NCBI RefSeq assembly: GCF_016598475.1
Contig: NZ_JAEMUX010000009.1
Location: forward strand, 62,001-126,000
Reading direction: 5' to 3'
Source of the DNA: Streptomyces adelaidensis
GTDB taxonomy: Bacteria > Actinomycetota > Actinomycetes > Streptomycetales > Streptomycetaceae
Length of the DNA: 64,000 nucleotides
Every line of letters starts with the position of its first letter. Position 1 is the stretch's first letter. Made by a program: the position numbers and the translations under genes. The notes below the pieces were generated by a model. That model was not told the origin of the DNA. It worked only from the letters and a program-made list of their open reading frames with translations, and searched no databases. Below are positions 7,260 to 63,443 of the stretch, piece after piece.

Positions 7260-8735
7260 CTAGTGGACGCCCAGCCAGCCCTCGATCGGGTTGAGGGCGA
7301 AGAAGACGAGGAAGACCGCCGTCAGGCCCCACATGAAGGCGCCGATCTCCCGCGCCCGGCCCTGGGCGAGTTTGATGGCGACGTAGGAGATGACCCCGGC
7401 CGCGACGCCCGCGGTGATCGAGTACGTGAACGGCATGATCACGACGGTCAGGAAGACCGGGATCGCGGTGGCCCGGTCGGACCAGTCGACGTGCCGGGCG
7501 TTCATCATCATCATGGCGCCGATGACGACGAGGGCGGCGGCCGCGACCTCGCCGGGGACGATCGCCGTGAGCGGGGTGAAAAACAGACAGGCCGCGAAGA
7601 ACAGGCCGGTGACGACCGAGGAGAGGCCCGTACGGGCGCCCTCGCCGACCCCGGTCGCCGACTCGACGAACACCGTCTGGCCCGAGCCGCCGGCCACGCC
7701 GCCGATCGCGCCGCCCGCGCCGTCGATGAACAGCGCCTTGGACAGGCCCGGCATCCGGCCCTTGTCGTCGGCCAGTCCGGCTTCCGTCCCTACGCCGATG
7801 ATGGTGGCCATCGCGTCGAAGAACCCGGCGAGTACGAGGGTGAAGACGATCATGCCGACCGTCATCGCGCCCACGTCGCCCCAGCCGCCGAACTCGACGT
7901 GGCCGAGGAGCGAGAAGTCCGGCATCGAGACCGCGCTGCCGTGCAACTCCGGTGCACCGCCCGCCCATTGCTCGGGATCGATGACGTCGAGGGCGTTGAG
8001 GAGCACGGCGAGGAGCGTGCCGCCGACGATGCCGAGCAGGATCGCGCCGGGGACGCCGCGCGCCTGGAGCATGAAGATCGCGAGGAGGGTGACCGCGAAG
8101 AGGAGGACCGGCCAGCCGGCGAGTTCGCCGTTCGGGCCGAGGGCGACCGGGGTCGCCTTGCCCTGGTGCACGAAACCGGCCTTGTAGAAGCCGATCAGGG
8201 CGACGAACAGGCCGATGCCCATGGTGATCGCGTGCTTCAGCGCCAGCGGGATGGCGTTCATGATCAGCTCGCGGAGGCCGGTGACGACCAGGAGCATGAT
8301 GACCACGCCGTACATCACGCACATGCCCATCGCCTGCGGCCAGGTCATCCGCGGGGCGACCTGCGAGGCGATGACACCGGAGACGGAGAGCCCGGCGGCG
8401 AGGGCGAGCGGCACCCTGCCGACGAAGCCCATCAGGAGCGTGGTGACGGCCGCCGCGAGCGCGGTCGCCGTGATCAGGGCCTTCTGGCCGAGGGTGGCGC
8501 CGGCCGCGTCCGGGCCGGACAGGATGAGCGGGTTGAGCAGGTTGAGCAGGTTGAGCAGGAGGATGTACGCCATCGCCATGAAGGTGGTGACGCCGCCGCG
8601 GACCTCGCGGGCGACGGAGGATCCTCGGTGGGTGATGTGGAAGTACCGGTCGAGCCAGGGCCTGCCGGCCGGGGGGCGGGGTTCTGTGGCCGCGTCCCCG
8701 GCGGCGGGGGTTGGTTTCAGTGACTGCTGGGTCAT
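7260..8735 (-). CDS. NCS2/AzgA-type purine permease
   Basis: 491 residues, a polytopic xanthine/guanine/hypoxanthine permease of the AzgA branch of NCS2. Evidence: GGVTTFMAMAYI at the first membrane segment, the conserved TAFF-type region FTLVLAGFFDAMATIIG, GGSGQTVFVESATGVGEG, and hydrophobic segments throughout to FALNPIEGW at the end. It would import the bases oxidised by the neighbouring dehydrogenase. Odd feature: the first membrane segment reads LLLNLLNLLNPLIL where relatives have a single N-P-L-I-L, because a 9-bp unit is present three times. The ATG at 8735 gives a normal hydrophilic N-terminus; the upstream open frame is a shadow. Confidence 0.9.
   Translation of the reverse strand: MTQQSLKPTPAAGDAATEPRPPAGRPWLDRYFHITHRGSSVAREVRGGVTTFMAMAYILLLNLLNLLNPLILSGPDAAGATLGQKALITATALAAAVTTLLMGFVGRVPLALAAGLSVSGVIASQVAPRMTWPQAMGMCVMYGVVIMLLVVTGLRELIMNAIPLALKHAITMGIGLFVALIGFYKAGFVHQGKATPVALGPNGELAGWPVLLFAVTLLAIFMLQARGVPGAILLGIVGGTLLAVLLNALDVIDPEQWAGGAPELHGSAVSMPDFSLLGHVEFGGWGDVGAMTVGMIVFTLVLAGFFDAMATIIGVGTEAGLADDKGRMPGLSKALFIDGAGGAIGGVAGGSGQTVFVESATGVGEGARTGLSSVVTGLFFAACLFFTPLTAIVPGEVAAAALVVIGAMMMMNARHVDWSDRATAIPVFLTVVIMPFTYSITAGVAAGVISYVAIKLAQGRAREIGAFMWGLTAVFLVFFALNPIEGWLGVH
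8533..8559 (-). repeat. 9-bp tandem repeat x3 inside permease TM1
   Basis: TTGAGCAGG is repeated three times exactly on the plus strand (CCTGCTCAA on the coding strand). Each copy adds Leu-Leu-Asn in frame, around residues 60-68 of the permease. Relative to the family the second and third copies are extra. Confidence 0.85.
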
Positions 8736-8912
8736 GTGGGCCTTCTCCCAAGGTTCACAGGGGCACCCGGCGTCGCACTTGGCGTTGGCCGGGATTTGGG
8801 AAGGTGCACGACCCGGGGGACGGCCCGAGACGAACGTGGTGCCTGCGGTGCTTGACCGGCATTGGGGTGGCCGGGGGGGGACTGTTGCCCGGCGGTGGGG
8901 TTGGGGTGCTAT

Positions 8913-9084
8913 GAGCTCGGGGGTTCGGATTCGTCGGCGGGTGCGGGTGCGATGTGGTTGCTCGCGCAGTTCCCCGCGCCCCTTAAAAGCGCCGGGCGAG
9001 CCCCATGCCGTCCAGGGGCGCGGGGAACTGCGCGAGCGGCCCCCACCCACCCGCACCCGCCGACGAACCGCGCCGCCCGAGCTC
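8913..9084. repeat. long dispersed palindrome, likely terminator
   Basis: The inner arms at 8960-8983 and 9014-9037 are a perfect 24-bp inverted repeat (core CGCAGTTCCCCGCGCCCCT) around a 30-base loop. The palindrome extends outward through TCGTCGGCGGGTGCGGGTG (8931-8949) and its complement near 9047-9066, to GAGCTCGG (8913) and CCGAGCTC (9084). It starts 23 bp after the stop of the molybdenum subunit gene, so it probably ends the dehydrogenase transcript or lowers readthrough into the permease. Related half-copies occur near 16031, 26362 and 33984 in this window. Confidence 0.75.
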
Positions 9085-9106
9085 AAACGCGCCGCGCCCG
9101 GACCGA

Positions 9107-11494
9107 CTACGCCGTGCCCGTGAGGTGTTCCGGGCGTACCGGCGTCCTGTTGAGGTCCAGTCCCGTCGCGTCGCGGATCGCCGCGAGGACGGCTGGGGTC
9201 GATGACAGGGTCGGGGCCTCGCCGACGCCGCGCAGCCCGTACGGCGCGTGGTCGTCGGCGAGTTCGAGCACGTCGACGGGGATGGTCGGCGTGTCGAGGA
9301 TCGTGGGGATGAGGTAGTCCGTGAAGGACGGGTTGCGGACCTTCGCGGTCTTCGGGTCGACGACGATCTCCTCCATGACCGCGATGCCGAGGCCCTGGAC
9401 GGTGCCGCCCTGGATCTGCCCGAGGACGGAGAGCGGGTTGAGGGCCTTGCCGACGTCCTGGGCGCAGGCCAGTTCGATGACCTTGACCAGGCCCAGCTCG
9501 GTGTCGACCTCGACGACCGCCCGGTGCGCGGCGAAGGTGTACTGGACGTGGCCGAAGCCCTGCCCGGTACGGAGGTCGAAGGGTTCGGTCGGCCGGTGCC
9601 GCCACTCCGCCTCGACCTCGACGGCCTCGTCGCCGAGTACGTCCACCAGGTCGGCGAGGACCTCGCCGGCGTCGGTGACGACCTTGCCGCCCTCCAGGAG
9701 CAGCTCGGCGGTCGCCCAGGCGGGGTGGTACGTACCGAACTTGCGGCGGCCGATCTCCAGGACCTTCTCGCGGACCAGCTCGCAGCTGTTCCTGACCGCG
9801 CCACCCGTGACGTACGTCTGCCGGGACGCGGACGTGGAACCGGCCGAACCCACCTGTGTGTCGGCCGGGTTGATCGTCACCTGGGTGACGCCCAGCTCGG
9901 TGCGGGCGATCTGCGCGTGCACGGTGATGCCGCCCTGGCCGACCTCCGCCATGGCCGTGTGGACGGTGGCGACGGGCTCGCCGCCGACGACCTCCATACG
10001 GACGCGGGCGGTCGAGTAGTCGTCGAAGCCCTCGGAGAAGCCGACGTTCTTGATGCCGACCGCGTAGCCGATGCCCCGGACGACGCCCTCGCCGTGCGTG
10101 GTGTTGGACAGGCCGCCCGGCAGCTGTCGTACGTCCGGCGCCTCGCCCGCCGTGAGCCACTGCTGCTCGGGCGGCAGGGGCATCGCCTTGACGCGGCGCA
10201 GGAGTTCGGCGACCGGGGCCGGGGAGTCGACGGCCTGGCCGGTGGGCAGCAGCGTGCCCTGCTCCATGGCGTTGAGCTGCCGGAGCTGCACCGGGTCCAT
10301 GCCGAGCTTCGCCGCCAGTTTGTCCATCTGCGCCTCGTACGCGAAGCACGCTTGGACCGCGCCGAAGCCTCGCATGGCGCCGCAGGGCGGGTTGTTGGTG
10401 TAGAGGGCGATGGCCTCGATGTCCACGTCGTCGATGACGTACGGGCCGGCGCCGAGCGAGGAGGCGTTGCCGACGACCGCCGGGGAGGCGGAGGCGTAGG
10501 CGCCGCCGTCGAGAACGATGCGGGCCTTGAGGTGGGTGAGCTTGCCGTCGCTGGTCGCCCCGTGCTCGTAGTACAGCTTCGCGGGGTGGCGGTGGACATG
10601 GCCGAAGAAGGACTCGAAGCGGTTGTAGACGATCTTCACCGGCTTGCCGGTGCGCAGCGCCAGCAGGCAGGCGTGGATCTGCATCGACAGGTCCTCGCGC
10701 CCGCCGAAGGCGCCGCCGACACCGGCCAGCGTCATGCGGACCTTGTCCTCGGGCAGGCCGAGGACGGGCGCGATCTGGCGGAGGTCGGAGTGCAGCCACT
10801 GGGTGGCGATGTAGAGGTCGACGCCGCCGTCCTCGGCGGGCACGGCGAGGCCGGACTCGGGGCCGAGGAAGGCCTGGTCCTGCATGCCGAAGACGTACTC
10901 GCCCTCGACGATCACATCGGCGCGTTCCCGGGCCGCCGCGACGTCGCCGCGGACGATCGGCTGACGGTGGACGATGTTCGGGTGCGCGACATGGCCGATG
11001 TGGTGGTCGGTGCGGCCCTCGTGGACGTGGATCGCGTCCGGCGCGGTGGCGGAGGCCTCGTCGGTGATGACCGGCAGTTCGCGGTACTCCACCTTGATCT
11101 TGGCGGCGGCGCGGCGCGCGGTCTCCGGGTGGTCGGCGGCGACGATCGCGACGGGCTCGCCGTGGTGGCGGACCTTGCCGTGGGCGAGGACCGGGGTGTC
11201 CTGGATCTCCAGGCCGTAGTGCTTCACCTCGGTCGGCAGGTCGTCGTACGTCATGACGGCGTAGACGCCGGGGGTGGCGAGGGCCTCGGCCGTGTCGATG
11301 GAGAGGATCTCGGCGTGGGCGACCGTGGAGCGCAGGATCTGGCCCCACAGCATGTCCTCGTGCCACATGTCGGACGAGTACGCGAACTCGCCGGTGACCT
11401 TGAGGACGCCGTCCGGGCGGAGCGTGGACTCGCCGATGCCGCCCTTGGTGCGGGAGCCCTGGGTGAGGTTGGTGGGCAGGCCGGTGGTTCCCAT
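9107..11494 (-). CDS. xanthine dehydrogenase, molybdopterin-binding subunit
   Basis: 795 residues. Motifs: an N-terminal aldehyde oxidase/xanthine dehydrogenase a/b hammerhead (VTGEFAYSSDMWHEDMLWGQ), VGGAFGGREDLSMQ at the cofactor, GAMRGFGAVQ containing the purine-positioning arginine, and RGVGEAPTLSSTP with the catalytic glutamate near the C-terminus. It performs hydroxylation of hypoxanthine and xanthine at the Mo centre and passes electrons to the Fe-S subunit. The ATG at 11494 lies two bases after the Fe-S subunit's stop, so the genes are translationally linked. Third gene of the operon starting at 12998. Confidence 0.9.
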   Translation of the reverse strand: MGTTGLPTNLTQGSRTKGGIGESTLRPDGVLKVTGEFAYSSDMWHEDMLWGQILRSTVAHAEILSIDTAEALATPGVYAVMTYDDLPTEVKHYGLEIQDTPVLAHGKVRHHGEPVAIVAADHPETARRAAAKIKVEYRELPVITDEASATAPDAIHVHEGRTDHHIGHVAHPNIVHRQPIVRGDVAAARERADVIVEGEYVFGMQDQAFLGPESGLAVPAEDGGVDLYIATQWLHSDLRQIAPVLGLPEDKVRMTLAGVGGAFGGREDLSMQIHACLLALRTGKPVKIVYNRFESFFGHVHRHPAKLYYEHGATSDGKLTHLKARIVLDGGAYASASPAVVGNASSLGAGPYVIDDVDIEAIALYTNNPPCGAMRGFGAVQACFAYEAQMDKLAAKLGMDPVQLRQLNAMEQGTLLPTGQAVDSPAPVAELLRRVKAMPLPPEQQWLTAGEAPDVRQLPGGLSNTTHGEGVVRGIGYAVGIKNVGFSEGFDDYSTARVRMEVVGGEPVATVHTAMAEVGQGGITVHAQIARTELGVTQVTINPADTQVGSAGSTSASRQTYVTGGAVRNSCELVREKVLEIGRRKFGTYHPAWATAELLLEGGKVVTDAGEVLADLVDVLGDEAVEVEAEWRHRPTEPFDLRTGQGFGHVQYTFAAHRAVVEVDTELGLVKVIELACAQDVGKALNPLSVLGQIQGGTVQGLGIAVMEEIVVDPKTAKVRNPSFTDYLIPTILDTPTIPVDVLELADDHAPYGLRGVGEAPTLSSTPAVLAAIRDATGLDLNRTPVRPEHLTGTA

Positions 11495-54413: not shown

Positions 54414-55493
54414 TTGGCGGCACTGGCAGTCGTACGGGACCTGCGTGAGCACTGGGCGCCCGCGTCGGCGGAGGAACTGGAGCGGTTCGAGACCGACGTG
54501 CTGTCCGGGTTCGTTCTCGCGCGGGCCTCGGCAGGGCTGGCGGACGGCACGATCCGCGGGGACGTCGGGCATCTGGAGCAGATCAGGTCCTGGTTCGGCC
54601 GGCCGCTGTGGGACATGGAGCCCGCCGACGCGGACGTGTACTTCGGGAAGGTGCTGCGGCACTCGCCCAGCGGCACCCGGCTGGGCCGGTCGCAGGCGCT
54701 GAGCACGTACTTCATGTTCCTGGAGTTGCGGCACAAGGTCGAGCTCCACCGGATGACCGGCCGGGTCGTCGAGTGCCCGGTCGACGAGATGAACCGGCCG
54801 CGCGGGGCCAAGGATGCCCAGTTGCGGATCCCTCCGAGTGAGGCGGAGATCGGGACGCTGTTCACGGGCTGGGGCGGCGAGCTGGCGACCTGCCGGAAGT
54901 TCGCCCCCACCGCCCGTAACTACACCGCCTCGAAGCTGATGTCCCAGGTCGGCCTGCGGGTGAGCGAGGCATGCGGCCTCGACCTGGACGACATCAAGTG
55001 GGACCTGGGCCGCTTCGGCAAGCTCCACGTCCGCCACGGCAAAGGCGCCCGCGGCTCGGGGCCGCGCGAGCGGATGGTGCCGCTGATCAACGGCGCCGAC
55101 CGGACACTGCGGTGGTTCATCGAGGACGTGTGGGGCCAGTTCGACGACGACCACACCCGGCCCGGTGCCCCGCTGTTCCCGAGCGAGCGGAAGAACACCG
55201 ATGGCTCCGCCCGCCGGGTCGGCGACGACGCCCTGCGCAACGGTCTCGACAACGCCGTCGAGGCTCATCTGCCGGGCTGGACGGACAAGTTGACGCCGCA
55301 CGTCCTGCGGCATTTCTGCGCGTCCCAGCTCTATGGGAACGGGCTGGACCTGCTCGCGATCCAGGAGGTTTTGGGACATTCCTGGATTGCCACCACGATG
55401 CGGTATATCCACGTGCAGCAGACCCGGGTCGAGGACGCCTGGGTCGCCGGGATGGAACGGGCCGCGAAGCGGCTGGAAGGACTGGCCCGATGA
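54414..55493 (+). CDS. tyrosine recombinase, first gene of the trio
   Basis: 359 residues from a TTG with GAGGAGG seven bases upstream. An N-terminal SAM-like core-binding region (RGDVGHLEQIRSWFGRPLWD) precedes the catalytic domain: Arg I in QVGLRVSEACGLDLDD, Lys in VRHGKGARGSG, H-x-x-R in LTPHVLRHFCASQLYG, His/Trp site in EVLGHSWIATT and tyrosine in MRYIHVQQ. All catalytic positions are intact. It overlaps the next gene by four bases (ATGA). Confidence 0.85.
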   Translation: MAALAVVRDLREHWAPASAEELERFETDVLSGFVLARASAGLADGTIRGDVGHLEQIRSWFGRPLWDMEPADADVYFGKVLRHSPSGTRLGRSQALSTYFMFLELRHKVELHRMTGRVVECPVDEMNRPRGAKDAQLRIPPSEAEIGTLFTGWGGELATCRKFAPTARNYTASKLMSQVGLRVSEACGLDLDDIKWDLGRFGKLHVRHGKGARGSGPRERMVPLINGADRTLRWFIEDVWGQFDDDHTRPGAPLFPSERKNTDGSARRVGDDALRNGLDNAVEAHLPGWTDKLTPHVLRHFCASQLYGNGLDLLAIQEVLGHSWIATTMRYIHVQQTRVEDAWVAGMERAAKRLEGLAR

Positions 55494-55819: not shown

Positions 55820-57434
55820 GCCGGTATCCGAAGGGCTACTACAAGCCCACCGACTCCTGCGACGGCTGCCTGGCCTGGGGCGACTTCAGCGGACGGCTCT
55901 GCCCGACCTGCTACATGTTCGGCCGCAGCCACGCGACGGCCGTCTGCGCCGGCTGCCGCCGTGTCCAGCCGCTGAAGTGGGATTTCTGTCGTCTGTGCTG
56001 GTGCCAGGCCCGGCTGGGCGCCCAGGCCGCTGTCGACCGGCTGGCCGCGGAGGCCGATGTGAGGGCCCGCCTCAACGCGGTCCGGCACCATCAGCTGTTC
56101 TTCATGGGCATGCACCACCGCAACGGATCGGCACTCGCCCCTCGGCGGCGCGGCGGACGGCGGGGCGCCCCTCGCAAGCCACCGCCCGCGCCGGCCTGGC
56201 GGCCGAATGCCGATTGGAGACAGCTGCCGCTGTTCGGACAGGTCCCGCGCGACTACGGCCGCCTCGACCCCTCCGGCGTTGACTTGACCAGCCCCTGGCT
56301 GACCTGGGCGAAGTACCTCGCTCACCGGTTCGCCGAGGCACGGGGCTGGGGACGCAACATCCGCTTCGCCGTCAACCGCGGCCTGGCCCTTGTCCTCACC
56401 GGGTACGTCGAGGGCGACGCCATCCGGCACAGCGAGATCTTCACCCCGCTCCGGTCCCGCGACCTCCCGGTCGGCCACGTCATCACGGTCCTGGAGGAGA
56501 TGGCAATCTTCGAGGACGACAGCGAACCCTCCTTCGAGGGCTGGCTCGCCGAGCGTCTGGAGGGTCTCGCACCCGGCATCCGCTCGGAGGCCGAGCGCTG
56601 GACCCGCGTCCTGCGTGACGGTGGCCCCCGCAGCCTCCCGCGACGGGAAGGCACGGTCTGGCTCTACCTCAACCGTGTCCGGCCGGCCCTGCTGGAATGG
56701 TCGGACCGCTATGACCACCTGCGGGAAGTGACCCGCGACGACGTCCGGCCTACATCAAGACACTGCACGGCCACCAGCGGCGTGACCAACTCGTGGCCCT
56801 GCGCTCGCTGTTCTCCTGGGCCAAGCGGAATGGGCTGCTTTTCCGCAACCCGACCAGCCGGATCAAGGTCGGCCAGTACGAGTACGGCGTGCTCCAGCCG
56901 CTGGTCCCCGCCCAGGTCGGCCGGTCCGTCGCGGCGGCCACCACCCCGGCAACACGACTCATCCTCGCCCTCGCCGCGGTGCACGCCGCCCGGGTCGCCC
57001 AGATCGGCATGCTCATGCTCGACGACGTCGACCTCGGCAACCGACGGCTGACCATCGCCGGACGCGTCCGCCCGCTCGACGACCTCACCCTGAAACTGCT
57101 GCTGGACTGGCTCGGCCACCGGCGAGACCGGTGGCCGAGCACCGCGAACCTCCATCTGCTGATCAACAACCAGACCGCCACCAAGACCAGCCGCGCCAGC
57201 AACCACTGGATCAGCGCCTCGATGCGCGGCCAGGACGCGACACTGGAGCGGCTCCGCGTCGACCGGCAACTCGAAGAGGCCCTGACCCACGGGCCCGATC
57301 CGCTTCACCTCGCCGAGGTGTTCGGGCTCGACGAGAAGACCGCAATGCGCTACGCGGACTCCGCACGGGCACTACTGGAACAGGCAGCCGAGCACTCGGC
57401 ATCGCCCTCGGGAAAAGAACTTGGCCCGGATTGA
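55816..57434 (+). pseudogene. large zinc-finger tyrosine recombinase, single-base frameshift
   Basis: The frame from ATG 55816 has N-terminal zinc pairs (SCDGC, LCPTC, VCAGC, FCRLC), a long middle region and HLREVTRDDVR, then loses meaning. Good coding resumes one frame earlier with ALRSLFSWAKRNGLLFRNPT and continues to the stop at 57434, with R in HAARVAQIGMLMLDDVD and a C-terminal AMRYADSARAL tyrosine. Adding one G near 56747-56750 (cgtccGGcctac) would restore about 540 residues. Either the gene is inactivated or this is a sequencing error in a G/C run. Confidence 0.75.
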
Positions 57435-58144: not shown

Positions 58145-58182
58145 CGCTAAGTGGTCTGCGCCGTAAGTCCTTCGGGGGTTGA
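58145..58182 (+). repeat. terminal inverted repeat, left
   Basis: Starts CGCTAAGTGGTCTGCG and ends AAGTCCTTCGGGGGTTGA. The last base is next to the transposase stop codon (58183-58185). Confidence 0.75.
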
Positions 58183-59349
58183 TCATGCTTCCGGGGTGGC
58201 GGAGGATTCTTCTGGGTGATCGGCGGTGTGCCGGTCGAGTCTGGCCAGCAGATCGTCCAGGTCGGAGGTGGTGAACTTCCACTGGAACGGCTGTGCCGTG
58301 GCGTTGTAGCGGTCTTCGAAGGCTCGGAGCCGGTCCCCGACCTGGGCGAGGTCGGTGAAGTCGTTGGGCGAGACGACCTTGCGCTGGACGACGGAGAAGT
58401 AGATCTCCACTTGGTTCAACCACGAGGCGTGGACCGGGGTGTGGACCATGACCGCGTTCGGGAACGCACTGGTCAGCCGGTCGGCAGCCTTCTTGCCGCG
58501 GTGGGAGGAGCCGTTGTCGACGATCCAGAACACGCGTTCCGCGCTGGCGTACGGCTCCTGGGTCATGACCTGGGCGACCAGGTTCATGAACGGGTCGATG
58601 CCGGTCTTGGGTTCGGTGCGGCCGAACACTTTCGCGTGGTGGACGTCGTAGGCGGCGAGGTAGGCCAGGGCGCCGCCGCGGCCGTAGGTGTGGTTGACGC
58701 GCATAGCCCGGGCCTGGCCGGGGGCGAGGGTGGGGTGACAGCGGCAGCGGGCCTGGATGGAGGTCTTCTCGTCCGCGCTGATGACGTACTCGTCCGCGCC
58801 GAGCGGGACACCCTCGAACGTGCGGGCGTACAGGTCCAGAACACGCTGGGTCTTGACGCGGAAGTCCGGGTCGCGGATGAAGATCCAGGACCGGTACTGC
58901 CAGGGCTTGAGCGCGTCCTCGCGCAACCAGCGGCGCACCGTGGACGCGGAGACGGTCTCGGTGATCCCGCGCGCGGTCAGCTCGGCAGCCAACTCCGGGC
59001 ACGACCAGCGCGCCAGCGGCACGCCGGTCTCGGCGGGTAACTGGCAGGCCAACGCTTTGGCCTCGGCGACCTGCACGGGGGTGAAACGGGCGGGGCGCCC
59101 GGAGCGCTTGCGGTCAGCCAGGGCCGGCAGCCCGCCGTAGGCGAACCGGCCGCGCCAGGTCCGGACCGTGTCCACGTGCAGGTGGGTCTCGGCGGCGATC
59201 CTGGCATTACTCCGGCCACGTGCCGCAAGGAGGACGACTGCGGCACGCTGCCGGGCTTGGTGTGGAGTCTTGTGCCCGTAAGCCATCTTCTTCAGCCGGT
59301 GGCGCTCGGCGGCGGTCAGCACCACCGCCACGGCAGCGCGTATGGCCAC
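58183..59349 (-). CDS. IS630-family transposase
   Basis: 388 residues. N-terminal HTH domains (RSNARIAAETHLHVDTVRTW, RSGRPARFTP) and a DDE core: D in VISADEKTSIQ, D in FWIVDNGSSH and E in SWLNQVEIYFSVVQRK. Full family length and no interruptions, so probably active. The ATG at 59349 is far (about 2.1 kb) from the only candidate right-hand inverted repeat. The intervening 59350-59557 shows a GGAGGCGGAAGGAAGAGAGG purine run but no repeat. Confidence 0.9.
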   Translation of the reverse strand: MAIRAAVAVVLTAAERHRLKKMAYGHKTPHQARQRAAVVLLAARGRSNARIAAETHLHVDTVRTWRGRFAYGGLPALADRKRSGRPARFTPVQVAEAKALACQLPAETGVPLARWSCPELAAELTARGITETVSASTVRRWLREDALKPWQYRSWIFIRDPDFRVKTQRVLDLYARTFEGVPLGADEYVISADEKTSIQARCRCHPTLAPGQARAMRVNHTYGRGGALAYLAAYDVHHAKVFGRTEPKTGIDPFMNLVAQVMTQEPYASAERVFWIVDNGSSHRGKKAADRLTSAFPNAVMVHTPVHASWLNQVEIYFSVVQRKVVSPNDFTDLAQVGDRLRAFEDRYNATAQPFQWKFTTSDLDDLLARLDRHTADHPEESSATPEA

Positions 59350-59557
59350 GTACCTGTCCCCCGGATCCTGCGGCAGGCTGATAAGCCTGAATGATTTCGA
59401 CTGCCCCCGCTCTTCCTTCCACCTCGTTGGATCTACAAGGAGGCGGAAGGAAGAGAGGTAGTGACGGCCATCGTGATCGTTGAAGGTTCGTCGGCGCCCA
59501 GGAAGGCGGCCGGTGGCCTACGCTCGTGTCTCGCGTGTCACCGAGGATCGGGGGCGC

Positions 59558-60211
59558 TCACGCGGCGGACCGGACCTTGATCGCGTGGCTGAGGGCTGCC
59601 TGCTCTTCGTCGGGAAGGCGACGCTCGGCATGGAGCATGCGCAGGGCGGTGGTGACGCGTTCCTCGTCCTCGGATGTGCCGAGGCTGCCCATGTACGGGG
59701 GCAACAGCAGACTCAGGGCTTCGAGGTCCGTGCGTGCGCAGAGCGTGGTGAGGAGTTCACCGACAGGGTCTTCGTGCTGCTGTGGTGCGGGCCGGGCGGT
59801 GGCACGCAGTCCTGCGGCGATACGGTAGCGGAGCCATTGCTGGTGGGGGCCGGCTGGGACGTCGTCGATGTGCGTGGCGGCGGACTCGAAGTGTTCGCGG
59901 GCCTGTTCGATCTGGCCGAGGTCCCGGTGGGCCCGGGCCATGTTGCCGTGAAGTGAGGCGTAGAAGCCGCGGACACGATCGTCGCCGACCTTGTCGGCCC
60001 GGGTCAGGCACTCCTGGTTCCACCGCAGAGTCTCCTGCGGGGTCGGCTGGTGCCGGGCGAGGTAGTGCGCGGCGATGCAGGCGTCGTAGTCGTCCTCGGC
60101 CGCTTCCCAGGCTTGAAGGAACAGGTCCCGTGCTCGGGCATCTCGTCCTTCGGTCTCGGCCTGCATACCCTGCGCGCACAGCTGCACGACGATGTTCTCG
60201 GGGTCGGTCAC
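59558..60211 (-). CDS. tetratricopeptide-like protein
   Basis: 217 residues from a GTG with AGGAGA upstream. Helix-pair repeats: AETEGRDARARDLFLQAWEA, YDACIAAHYLARHQPTPQET, RWNQECLTRADKVGD and GNMARAHRDLGQIEQAREHF. These resemble TPR units of Streptomyces regulatory proteins. It lies 40 bp after the MerR/clamp gene on the same strand, so the two form an operon inside the IR-bounded segment. Function unknown; protein binding is likely. Confidence 0.7.
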   Translation of the reverse strand: MTDPENIVVQLCAQGMQAETEGRDARARDLFLQAWEAAEDDYDACIAAHYLARHQPTPQETLRWNQECLTRADKVGDDRVRGFYASLHGNMARAHRDLGQIEQAREHFESAATHIDDVPAGPHQQWLRYRIAAGLRATARPAPQQHEDPVGELLTTLCARTDLEALSLLLPPYMGSLGTSEDEERVTTALRMLHAERRLPDEEQAALSHAIKVRSAA

Positions 60212-60251
60212 GGTTCTCCTGAGGTGATGAGAGTGCGATGTTGAGGAAGAG

Positions 60252-61325
60252 TCAGCTGGAGGTGTCGAGGGCGACGGGCATGATCAGCGTGGTGAAGCTG
60301 CCCTGGTCTGCGGAACGCACCACGACAGGCCGATCTACGGCGGAAATCTCCAACAGAACGTCGGGCCCGACACTGGCCTCCAGCGCGGGGCCCAGGACGG
60401 CGGGGTCGAAACCGATCCGCTGGGGCAGGTCTCCATGGCAGACCGCCGGCAGGGTGACGGCGTCGGAGTGATCGGCAAGCGAGACGACCAGCTCGTCGTC
60501 CGCGAAACTCAGAGCGATGCGTGCAGCGTCTGCGTGGCTGTTGACCGCGTCACGCAGAGCCAGGCGATCCACGATCACGCGGTATTCCGGCGGGGCCAGA
60601 GCCGAGAGCATCTCGCGGTAGGCAGGGAACAGGTCATCGGTCGTCACCAGGACACGGCACTCTGCCGTACTGCGTGCGCGGGCGCCGTCCGGTCCGACCT
60701 GGATGGTGACCTCGTGGACTCGCGCCGCCCATTGCCCGAACTCGATCAGGTCAGCCGCGTGCACCAGCAGGCGGCAGGGCCCTCCGTCGAGTGCCGCCGG
60801 CCTCAGAACGCGCATCGACAGGCGATAGCGATCGGTAGCCACCAGACGCACCTCGCCGTCATCGATCTCGATGAGGACGCAACCCAGCGCAGGGAGTTCC
60901 ACGTCGGAGGCCGCGGCCGGCACCACCTGGCGTACCGCACTGGCCAACTCCACGCCGCCGATCCGCGCTTCCGTCATGCTGCCGGCAGTCGAGAGGGAAC
61001 GTAGAACCACGGCGATGGCGGCCTCGGCCGTTTGCGTCTGGTCCCGCATCCTCTCCAAGTGCCGTTCCAGCACCTCTCGGCCCTCGCGCTCGGGCCCGTC
61101 GAGCACCACGGTGACCTCAGCCAGTGGCAGTCCCGCTTCTCGCAGACTGCGCAGGAGGGCGGCACGGGCCTCCTGCGCAGGACTGTAGAAGCGGTATCCC
61201 GTCGCCCCATCAACCCACGCCGGCCGCAGAACGCGGCAGTCGTCGTAGAAACGCAGGGCGCTCGGAGCGAGACCGACCCGCCGCGCGAAGGCGCTGATGC
61301 TCAGTAGTTCCGTGGTGCCGTCCAT
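60252..61325 (-). CDS. MerR HTH fused to a DNA polymerase III beta-clamp-like domain
   Basis: 357 residues. Residues 1-75 are a MerR winged helix (SISAFARRVGLAPSALRFYD, GYRFYSPAQ), followed by a short coiled coil to about 110. From about 120 the chain resembles the sliding clamp: LGCVLIEIDDGEVRLVATDR, YRLSMRVL, later VIVDRLALRDAVN, and a C-terminal VVVRSADQGSFTTLIMPV that matches the DnaN ending (P-V-x-I-R-x-A-D-x-G-x-F-x-x-L-x-M-P-V). Only about two clamp domains fit in the length, not three. It may be a regulator with a clamp-fold sensor, or bind clamp partners. Confidence 0.75.
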   Translation of the reverse strand: MDGTTELLSISAFARRVGLAPSALRFYDDCRVLRPAWVDGATGYRFYSPAQEARAALLRSLREAGLPLAEVTVVLDGPEREGREVLERHLERMRDQTQTAEAAIAVVLRSLSTAGSMTEARIGGVELASAVRQVVPAAASDVELPALGCVLIEIDDGEVRLVATDRYRLSMRVLRPAALDGGPCRLLVHAADLIEFGQWAARVHEVTIQVGPDGARARSTAECRVLVTTDDLFPAYREMLSALAPPEYRVIVDRLALRDAVNSHADAARIALSFADDELVVSLADHSDAVTLPAVCHGDLPQRIGFDPAVLGPALEASVGPDVLLEISAVDRPVVVRSADQGSFTTLIMPVALDTSS

Positions 61326-61417
61326 GGCCCCGATTGTCGACGTTCATCCAACTTGAAGGTCAACTCGCCCTTCGGCCGGGTTCCGCGCCACCACTTGGCA
61401 CGGGAGCTGCCTCAGCG

Positions 61418-61455
61418 TCAACCCCCGAAGGACTTCGAGAGCCGACCACTAAGCG
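61418..61455 (-). repeat. terminal inverted repeat, right
   Basis: Reverse complement begins CGCTTAGTGGTCGGCT and ends AAGTCCTTCGGGGGTTGA; 32 of 38 positions equal the left copy. It lies 92 bp upstream of the MerR/clamp start. A separate hairpin (CGTCAGCC with GGCTGACG, 61458-61482) follows immediately. Confidence 0.75.
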
Positions 61456-62260: not shown

Positions 62261-62482
62261 CTACTCAAGACCGCCGAATCGACCCTCAGCCGCAGTGGAG
62301 ACGAACGCGGAAAGCTGCCCACGGTTCACCAACAGCGCCGGTCCGTGCGGCCTCTTGCTGTCCCGTACAGCCACCGTCTCGGCATCGACGATGCCGCACT
62401 CGACGCACTGCGCCCCCGTGTCACTGTACGAGGACTTCCACCACGTCACGGGGAGGGCGGACGCGTCGCCAACAGAGTTCAT
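62261..62482 (-). CDS. DUF397 protein
   Basis: 73 residues with the family signature TWWKSSYSDTGAQCVECGIV and VAVRDSKRPHGPALLV. DUF397 proteins pair with XRE regulators of the WhiJ type in Streptomyces and are thought to modulate them. The ATG overlaps the XRE stop by three to four bases (ATGA), so the pair is translationally coupled. Confidence 0.85.
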   Translation of the reverse strand: MNSVGDASALPVTWWKSSYSDTGAQCVECGIVDAETVAVRDSKRPHGPALLVNRGQLSAFVSTAAEGRFGGLE

Positions 62483-63342
62483 GCGGTCTTCCTTATTGTC
62501 GTGACCAGTTCCGCCGACTCCTCGACCGAGAGCGCGGCAGATGTCAGCCGTTGCCAGGCGTCCCGGTGAGCGGCGACCCCGTTGCCGTCCTCGACGTACA
62601 GCGCCGAGGCCAACCCCTCGGTATGGACGACGTCGAGGTCAGCATGCGGGCCGAAACCCAGAATCGTGAAGCTGCCCAACTGGCCGACGTGAAGGGGTGC
62701 GTCCGAGGGGAGCACCTGAATGTTGACGTTCGGACGTTTCGCCATGGTGAGCAACCGGCCCAACTGCTCGTTCATCAGGCCCTCAGTCTTCGATGACGAC
62801 CGTAGGGCGCCCTCGGCGATGATCGCCCACAGCGTGAGTGGGTCCTCGCGGGTGAGCACTGCCTGACGAGCGAGGCGCACCTCGACCAAGGCATCGACCC
62901 GCGCCTCAACCGCCTCAGACATCGCCGTGGCCCGGATGATCTCGCGGGCGTACTCAGCTGTGTGCAACAGGCCGGGAATCGCCCCTAGTTGCCACGACGA
63001 GACCGATTCGGCCTCGGCCTCAAGACTGATCAGATCCTCGTACACAGGGTTGAGGACGCCCCGATACGAGTGCCACCAACCACGCTGCGCACCCTCTTTG
63101 GTGAGGGTGAGCAGCGCGGCCCGTAGTTCGTCGCTCACCTCCCGGCCCAGCTCGATGTACAGATCGAGCAGAGCATCGACGTCCTTCTCTTTGGCCGGGC
63201 TCTTGGCCGTCTCGATCCTCGACAACTTCGAGGAGACGAACCGCCCTTCGGACTTCTCCGCGACCTCTTCGAGGGTGAGTTCACCCCGAAGTGCCTTCAG
63301 CTTGGCACCGAGGCGTCGGCGGCGCACTGTAGGCGCACTCAC
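62479..63342 (-). CDS. XRE-family regulator, Scr1/WhiJ type
   Basis: 287 residues from GTG 63342 with GGAGGG upstream; the longer open frame has no ribosome-binding site. N-terminal HTH: RLGAKLKALRGELTLEEVAE, GRFVSSKLSRIETAKS. The C-terminal 180 residues are the DUF5753 domain (LGAIPGLLHTAEYAREIIRA, LWAIIAEGALR, NVNIQVLPSDAP, YVEDG). These regulators act with a DUF397 protein and often an anti-sigma-like ATPase in developmental or antibiotic control. All three components are present here. Confidence 0.85.
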   Translation of the reverse strand: MSAPTVRRRRLGAKLKALRGELTLEEVAEKSEGRFVSSKLSRIETAKSPAKEKDVDALLDLYIELGREVSDELRAALLTLTKEGAQRGWWHSYRGVLNPVYEDLISLEAEAESVSSWQLGAIPGLLHTAEYAREIIRATAMSEAVEARVDALVEVRLARQAVLTREDPLTLWAIIAEGALRSSSKTEGLMNEQLGRLLTMAKRPNVNIQVLPSDAPLHVGQLGSFTILGFGPHADLDVVHTEGLASALYVEDGNGVAAHRDAWQRLTSAALSVEESAELVTTIRKTA

Positions 63343-63443
63343 GTTCGTTCCCTCCCCTTCGACGATCCACGCAACAGTCTGCCGTGCCCCACATTCGCTG
63401 TCACCTGCCCACTCATCGCTCCACACCCCATCCCACTATCGTG

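Follow-up and report, generated by a model that had tools for sequence, protein, structure and literature searches.

A gene of Streptomyces adelaidensis encodes a protein in which a MerR-type DNA-binding domain is followed by two domains of the replication sliding clamp. The gene lies on the reverse strand at positions 60252..61325 of the 64,000-nucleotide stretch of DNA analyzed here (the window), begins with an ATG codon, and specifies 357 amino acids. The best explanation of this protein, to which a probability of roughly one half is assigned, is that it represents a one-component sensor that regulates its own gene and holds its ligand in a clamp pocket put to a new use. We were not aware of any transcription factor that senses through a replication sliding clamp, and neither this arrangement nor any description of a MerR-clamp fusion was found in a literature search, which is weak evidence because the search covered mainly open-access papers. 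The sliding clamp constitutes a drug target class for which few natural inhibitors are known, and the fusion can be tested directly as a natural biosensor of molecules that bind the clamp. If its pocket is the sensor, clade-specific variants of the pocket point to clamp ligands in soil, possibly including unknown antibiotics.

Domain Architecture and Predicted Fold

The fusion protein consists of a helix-turn-helix (HTH) domain (residues ~9–76), a predicted helix (79–112), and clamp domains II and III (~115–354). The HTH was assigned by the Pfam model MerR_1 (PF13411; residues 9–76, E 1.3e-11, 44.8 bits against a cut-off of 21.6) and the clamp part by DNA_pol3_beta_2 (residues 126–177, E 4.5e-8, above its cut-off). 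The N-terminal clamp model of Pfam matched weakly, at 0.006 and below its cut-off, and no domain III match was listed in the Pfam search of the protein. The NCBIfam dnaN model TIGR00663 aligned residues 126–352 with model positions 133–366 of 367 (E 2.9e-9), and its score of 36.4 bits fell far short of the equivalog cut-off of 137.65, in keeping with a protein other than DnaN. In a sequence search of the PDB, the best match was the mycobacterial clamp 5ah2 (1.3e-8, residues 127–341).

An AlphaFold2 model of the monomer, built from an alignment of 25 sequences, had a mean pLDDT of 91.2 and a pTM of 0.67, the latter value leaving the relative placement of the MerR and clamp halves uncertain. Prediction from the single sequence was poor (pLDDT 38.5) and was left unused. 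The predicted helix that follows the HTH in the AlphaFold2 model is long (34 residues), like the dimerization helix found at this place in the MerR family. Comparison of the model with the PDB by Foldseek retrieved entries whose titles named a sliding clamp or DNA polymerase III beta in 49 of 50 cases among the matches listed (best E 4e-18), the remaining title reading only ‘Mismatch Repair Complex’. VIA-align placed model residues 115–356 on clamp residues from ~121 to the end, i.e., domains II and III, with Z scores of 24.2–28.5 over 50 sliding clamp entries among the matches listed (one tagged clamp chain being numbered from 162), and the clamp part was 14–29% identical to the solved clamps among those matches. 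Domain I is absent from the fusion according to both TIGR00663 coverage and VIA-align.

Profiles, model, and PDB comparison concur, and together they confirm, at the level of a predicted fold, that a MerR DNA-binding domain is joined to clamp domains II and III. A sequence-only reading of this gene had proposed a MerR HTH fused to a clamp fold, which was borne out by Pfam, TIGR00663, the AlphaFold2 model, and the PDB comparison. Its description of the C-terminus as clamp-like holds for domains II and III and not for a whole clamp, since domain I is missing; the comparison of a predicted structure with DnaN and the DnaN profile search that it had proposed returned the clamp fold and the matches given above. 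Full-length homologues from numerous independent genomes show that the fusion did not arise as an assembly artefact, and the gene is distinct from the dnaN gene of its own genome. The fold of domains II and III and the partner-binding pocket are shared with DnaN, the beta sliding clamp, whereas DnaN has three domains per subunit and the fusion has two, with a MerR head in place of domain I.

This architecture bears on whether the protein could be a working or ring-forming clamp, i.e., a processivity factor or clamp poison equipped with a DNA-binding head. The clamp fold does extend across two domains, and DNA binding by the head could load such a clamp near the operator, but half of the dimer interface is missing along with domain I, and a ring-forming clamp is considered highly improbable. 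The net charge of the four inner helices was not above that of DnaN, which is weak evidence against a ring since the count is crude and DnaN itself is not basic by it; a basic inner channel was for this reason set aside as an uninformative sign of DNA encircling.

Distribution and Clades

A profile of the fusion matched at E ≤ 1e-40 in 110 of 246 Streptomyces genomes, nearly full-length in 107 and partial in three (G159, G129, and G100). The profile also matched 24 of the 396 genomes that made up a phylum sample. Coverage indicated a full-length fusion in 11 of the 24, comprising seven Streptomyces and four genomes elsewhere in the class, one of which (G479) has an internal stop codon in the matched region; the other 13 matched in the clamp part only, like ordinary DnaN. 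A scan of named genomes yielded at least 80 loci. According to record titles, full-length relatives occur in at least 12 actinomycete genera beyond Streptomyces, namely Amycolatopsis, Prauserella, Saccharopolyspora, Saccharomonospora, Streptoalloteichus, Streptosporangium, Kribbella, Nonomuraea, Actinoallomurus, Microlunatus, Nocardia, and Gordonia. Nine plasmid records carry a nearly full-length relative, which is annotated only as ‘MerR family transcriptional regulator’ in seven; one of the remaining records has no feature at the position of the fusion and one has no annotation at all.

A midpoint-rooted tree of 188 regions resolved three clades, A, B, and C, with the window protein in A. 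The 188 regions contain eight duplicates between two samples and thus 180 distinct genes; the duplicates are still included in the tree, the pocket statistics, the control-gene count, and the MFS-distance and repeat counts reported below. The full-length genus match G195 was left out of the 188 regions, the partial relative L034 was left out of the counts, and L033 was left out of alignment A1 and the 81-member pocket comparison. The genome from which the window derives contains a second fusion copy (L002/L125), which belongs to clade B and has a TPR gene downstream. This paralogue, at 8224–9345, is unusual at its N-terminus and is not preceded by the promoter box described below, and a frameshift or assembly error is possible. 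A C-terminal clamp remnant without a MerR part (L148, 8460–8810) is probably a decayed copy.

Zero matches to the fusion were obtained in a phage collection, and a phage origin was rejected. The suggestion made from the sequence that the protein could act in replication-linked defence found no direct support in this collection, which holds no relatives.

Conservation of the Peptide-Binding Pocket

A review catalogues 18 distinct residues of the clamp pocket (PMC11139829). Seventeen of these positions were mapped onto the fusion proteins, V344, whose alignment was unsure, being left out, and conservation was assessed in 108 sequences gathered without motif selection (107 genes of the genus sample and the window protein). 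Mean information was 3.48 bits for the pocket and 2.58 bits for the whole clamp region, and 0 of 10,000 random draws was as high. By clade, the excess was strong in A (p 0.0001) and C (0 of 10,000 draws) and weaker in B (3.82 versus 3.50 bits, p 0.04). The equivalents of L155, T172, P242, M362, and P363 were invariant in 107 of 107 sequences and that of R176 was conserved in 106, and subsite I is kept in the fusion proteins. V360 and L177 show conservative changes. G174 is replaced by R and H175 mostly by Y, likewise in the eight actinobacterial DnaN proteins compared, and E. coli residues R152 and R246 are mostly lost in clades A and B, at positions where the same eight DnaN proteins also mostly differ.

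Subsite II varies by clade. In the sample not chosen by motif, the positions of N320 and Y323 are occupied by D (20/20) and V (18/20) in clade A, by E (21/29) and T (29/29) in clade B, and, near to DnaN, by N (53/58) and F or Y (57/58) in clade C. The N320 position was more mixed in the 81-member set (D 53, N 9, T 6, E 5), which is biased because it was partly found by patterns covering ATDRYR or SALRFY; the comparison was repeated on pattern-free loci. The pocket is read as having kept an ability to bind ligands, with a specificity that probably changed by clade. Together with the MerR-type promoter discussed below, the conserved peptide pocket favors the earlier proposal that a clamp fold may act here as the sensor of a regulator.

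Two other readings are affected by these findings. Pocket residues are strongly conserved in ordinary DnaN as well, so their retention could partly reflect inheritance or fold constraint, and this general conservation and the weaker excess in clade B limit the pocket argument. The clamp domain might accordingly be a mere scaffold, or might bind an unrelated small molecule elsewhere, leaving the pocket as a relic. The weak clade B excess fits such a relic, as does the presence of non-pocket positions (A128, A130, R249, L311, P333, and R337) among the conserved residues of the clamp part, but the strong pocket excess in clade A, clade C, and the pooled sample, despite 14–29% identity to solved clamps, makes it unlikely. 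Alternatively, the pocket might bind the clamp clients of the cell itself, such as polymerases and repair proteins, in which case the protein would report levels of free clients or be tethered to replication factories, and would not be a sensor of a compound from outside. Subsite I is as in DnaN and subsite II of clade C is also close to it, as a replication-coupled regulator might have it. The glutamine subsite (N320, Y323), however, is altered in a clade-specific manner in A and B, which argues against canonical QLxLF clients, and patchy presence (107 of 246 genomes) and mobility speak against a housekeeping function.

Predicted Promoter and Autoregulation

In MerR-type promoters, the operator dyad resides within a long (19-bp) spacer. 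A promoter/operator of this type is predicted on the reverse strand at 61333..61363, from sequence reading and a conserved box. It comprises TTGACC (61363–61358), a 19-bp spacer, and GACAAT (61338–61333), followed by 7 nt to the ATG codon, with a dyad, GACCTTCA-N7-TGAACGTC, at 61361–61339, mostly inside the spacer. The box TTGACCYTS is present upstream of 174 of 180 distinct fusion genes (84/88 in clade A, 33/34 in B, and 57/58 in C, which has its own variant of the dyad) and upstream of 12 of 2,221 control genes, i.e., other genes of the same loci; since the pattern was drawn from these loci, the contrast with the control genes is the test. On the strength of this contrast, the fusion gene is very likely self-regulated via the predicted operator. 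The six regions of 188 in which the box is absent are L236, L125, L046, L242, L038, and L077, of which L046, L242, and L077 contain near-box variants and L038 has lost its 5′ flank.

A search of the same genome with the operator pattern, allowing at most one mismatch, found, besides this promoter, one palindromic site close to the end of a contig and one site with a single mismatch. That the pattern is nearly unique in its genome further argues against a ring-forming clamp that would be loaded through its DNA-binding head. The palindromic copy (L126, 9700–9724) is located ~130 bp from the contig end, and no clear regulator gene was seen with it.

Genes Coupled to the Fusion

In the window, a co-directional gene for a TPR-like protein of 217 amino acids (59558..60211, reverse strand) starts 40 bp downstream of the fusion gene. 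Its assignment draws on a TPR_12 match (E 2.1e-6, just under the cut-off) and on conserved pairing. A TPR homologue lies within 1.5 kb downstream of 56/88 distinct genes in clade A, 31/34 in clade B, and 0/58 in clade C (one A and one C region being too short in DNA to tell), and in 48 named loci the two genes are −35 to 146 nt apart. The co-directional coding partner noted from the sequence is thereby confirmed, with a pairing conserved in most of A and B. Presence of the pair in both of these clades suggests that the association is old and that some lineages then lost the TPR gene. The TPR protein was rejected as a clamp client, strings resembling the clamp-binding motif having been found in 2 of 61 TPR proteins, where shuffled sequences gave a mean of 5.2; an internal clamp-binding motif in the fusion was also rejected, with 10 of 188 against a shuffled mean of 20.3 and hence no enrichment. 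A third TPR relative in the same genome (L127, 7651–8190 and 8385–9068) is found without a MerR-clamp gene and adjoins a gene of the uracil-DNA glycosylase superfamily (PF03167).

The Kribbella group comprises 12 loci (one titled Streptomyces sp. SID13031), none of which has a TPR gene. In seven of them (L087, L095, L100, L102, L105, L107, and L108), an MFS gene, identified in the L108 copy by MFS_1 (E 1.1e-32), overlaps the stop codon of the fusion by 4 nt, and the promoter box is present in all 12 loci, including these seven. Transport is the likely output in these seven loci, fitting a resistance switch. The overlap slightly raises the standing of both the sensor explanation and its drug-sensor version and slightly lowers that of a replication-coupled regulator. 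Resistance to clamp-targeting compounds, as suggested by the sequence-only reading, remains a candidate role through these seven loci and the analogy discussed below. Clamp-binding motifs in the TPR proteins are no more frequent than chance, which speaks against a direct clamp link of this partner. A general link to efflux was dropped: the main MFS cluster, which is other than the Kribbella overlap cluster, is represented in 36 of 81 loci at a rate that shows no trend with distance from the fusion (10/473 genes at positions 1–3, 12/447 at 4–6, and 16/470 further away).

Neighboring genes supply two additional points in favor of replication coupling. A gene of the DnaB helicase cluster is present within the fetched stretch in 15 of 81 loci (DnaB being confirmed for the L067 copy), and on plasmid pADI95-16b (L253, 3484–12116) a fusion copy with its downstream partner is separated by ~3.6 kb from a plasmid dnaE gene and by ~7 kb from a Ku gene. 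This plasmid copy is clade B-like and 38% identical to the window protein. The dnaE neighbor is a single case, however, and the MFS coupling in Kribbella is also at odds with a housekeeping function; a replication-coupled regulator is on the whole rather doubtful.

Proposed Mechanism and Comparison With Known Systems

If the protein is a self-regulated sensor with a repurposed clamp pocket, the MerR half would dimerize and bind the dyad in its own 19-bp-spaced promoter, as the conserved box implies. Without domain I, the normal clamp ring should not close, but the hydrophobic partner-binding pocket is retained. A ligand in this pocket, with a clamp-binding peptide, a protein tail, or a cyclic peptide of the griselimycin/mycoplanecin kind as candidates, would shift the MerR dimer and presumably switch its own operon on. 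The operon would then yield more of the decoy clamp domain along with the product of an output gene with a putative effector role: the TPR-like gene for most members of A and B, and the MFS transporter gene for some of the Kribbella group. In clade C, which lacks the TPR gene, the regulator itself may be the output, as a ligand sponge or a TipA-like self-contained sensor.

MerR regulators with C-terminal ligand domains, e.g., TipA, BmrR, and BrlR, are similar to the fusion in their N-terminal MerR HTH and long helix, their ligand-sized C-terminal domain, and a 19-bp-spaced promoter box before their own gene. The C-terminal domain of the fusion differs from those of TipA and BmrR in being a DnaN-derived clamp rather than of the TipAS or BmrR type, and the TipAS family was absent among Pfam matches of the fusion up to E 1. 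TipA has been presented as a minimal autoregulated resistance system that combines sensor, activator, and drug neutralizer in one gene (PMC7762955), and by analogy the fusion may still work like TipA despite its clamp fold.

A second comparison concerns GriR and MypR, which are described as second dnaN genes in the griselimycin and mycoplanecin biosynthetic clusters; the second dnaN gene of the mycoplanecin cluster is reported to have transposases nearby, and the same has been reported for griR (PMC10817943). Like the fusion, these are extra clamp-type proteins beside transposase genes, and the same paper ties them to clamp-binding antibiotics (PMC10817943). They differ in that they are full-length dnaN within clusters, while the fusion is a regulator with domains II and III only. 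Because of the GriR/MypR analogy and the MFS coupling in Kribbella, a drug-sensor version of the preferred explanation can be proposed, if only tentatively. A decoy clamp-transcription factor might allow actinomycetes to sense antibiotics or rival proteins that bind the clamp, and perhaps also to sequester or export them, with a pocket tuned to different ligands in the three clades, coupling to MFS transport in Kribbella, and one version spread by IS630.

An IS630-Type Element and Its Relatives

The possible mobile unit inferred earlier from the sequence can now be defined as an IS630-type element with terminal inverted repeats. The whole element spans 58147..61453, and its cargo consists of the MerR-clamp gene and the TPR gene. 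It encodes an IS630 family transposase of 388 amino acids (58183..59349, reverse strand; NF033545, E 1.3e-48, 166 bits against a cut-off of 100) and is bounded by terminal inverted repeats at 58147..58182 on the transposase side (forward strand) and 61418..61453 on the regulator side (reverse strand), with 3,301 bp between the motif starts in the window copy. DNA of ~58147–61453 is common to a Streptomyces linear plasmid (L159, 89%) and a Kitasatospora plasmid (L160), and DNA of the element is also present in three other genomes (L150, L039, and L038). The matches in L160, L150, and L039 are piecewise and cover shorter spans, and L038 lacks the regulator-side end; repeats at both ends were refound in L159, L160, L150, and L039. 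The IS630 family generates a TA target duplication. Junctions of this element are mostly CT-[element]-AG, and the flanking dinucleotides vary. The element repeats are found in only five of the 188 fusion regions (one a duplicate and one the window itself), all in clade A, so movement by this element appears to be recent and confined to one lineage.

Passenger-carrying insertion sequences are of a known kind. The window element resembles IS630 insertion sequences with passenger genes in its transposase, terminal inverted repeats, and cargo before the far repeat; it differs in carrying the MerR-clamp/TPR pair, where sister elements carry other genes. In this Streptomyces IS630-type family, the cargo that separates the transposase gene from the distal inverted repeat varies among members, and includes a methyltransferase (L257), an S66 LD-carboxypeptidase (L260), a GNAT acetyltransferase (L268), a protein kinase family protein (L276), a carbon-nitrogen hydrolase (L278), an HTH regulator with small proteins (L279), and a TetR regulator with a reductase-like protein (L280). 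Cargo-carrying IS630 elements show a route by which such sensors spread. The repeat pair was present in 9 of 9 plasmid records examined (of 48 matching, besides L159 and L160), two of them with six mismatches at one end, and in 9 of 20 genome loci, where the 1.5 kb flanks may cut others; three of those nine genome loci are the window and two copies already named, and L269 is apparently the same record as L282.

Four IS630 elements of ~1.67 kb encode the same small protein of 107–111 amino acids, 62–70% identical among copies (L265, 1060–1383; L275, 5282–5617; L277, 5288–5614; and L281, 4288–4614), and a Pfam search of the L265 and L275 copies returned no match. In the window itself, a tyrosine recombinase (54414–55493) and a weaker, partial recombinase-like open reading frame (56793–57434) lie at lower coordinates than the element, and 62479–63426 encodes a DUF5753 HTH regulator that is related to the Sco1979 family at a score under the family cut-off.
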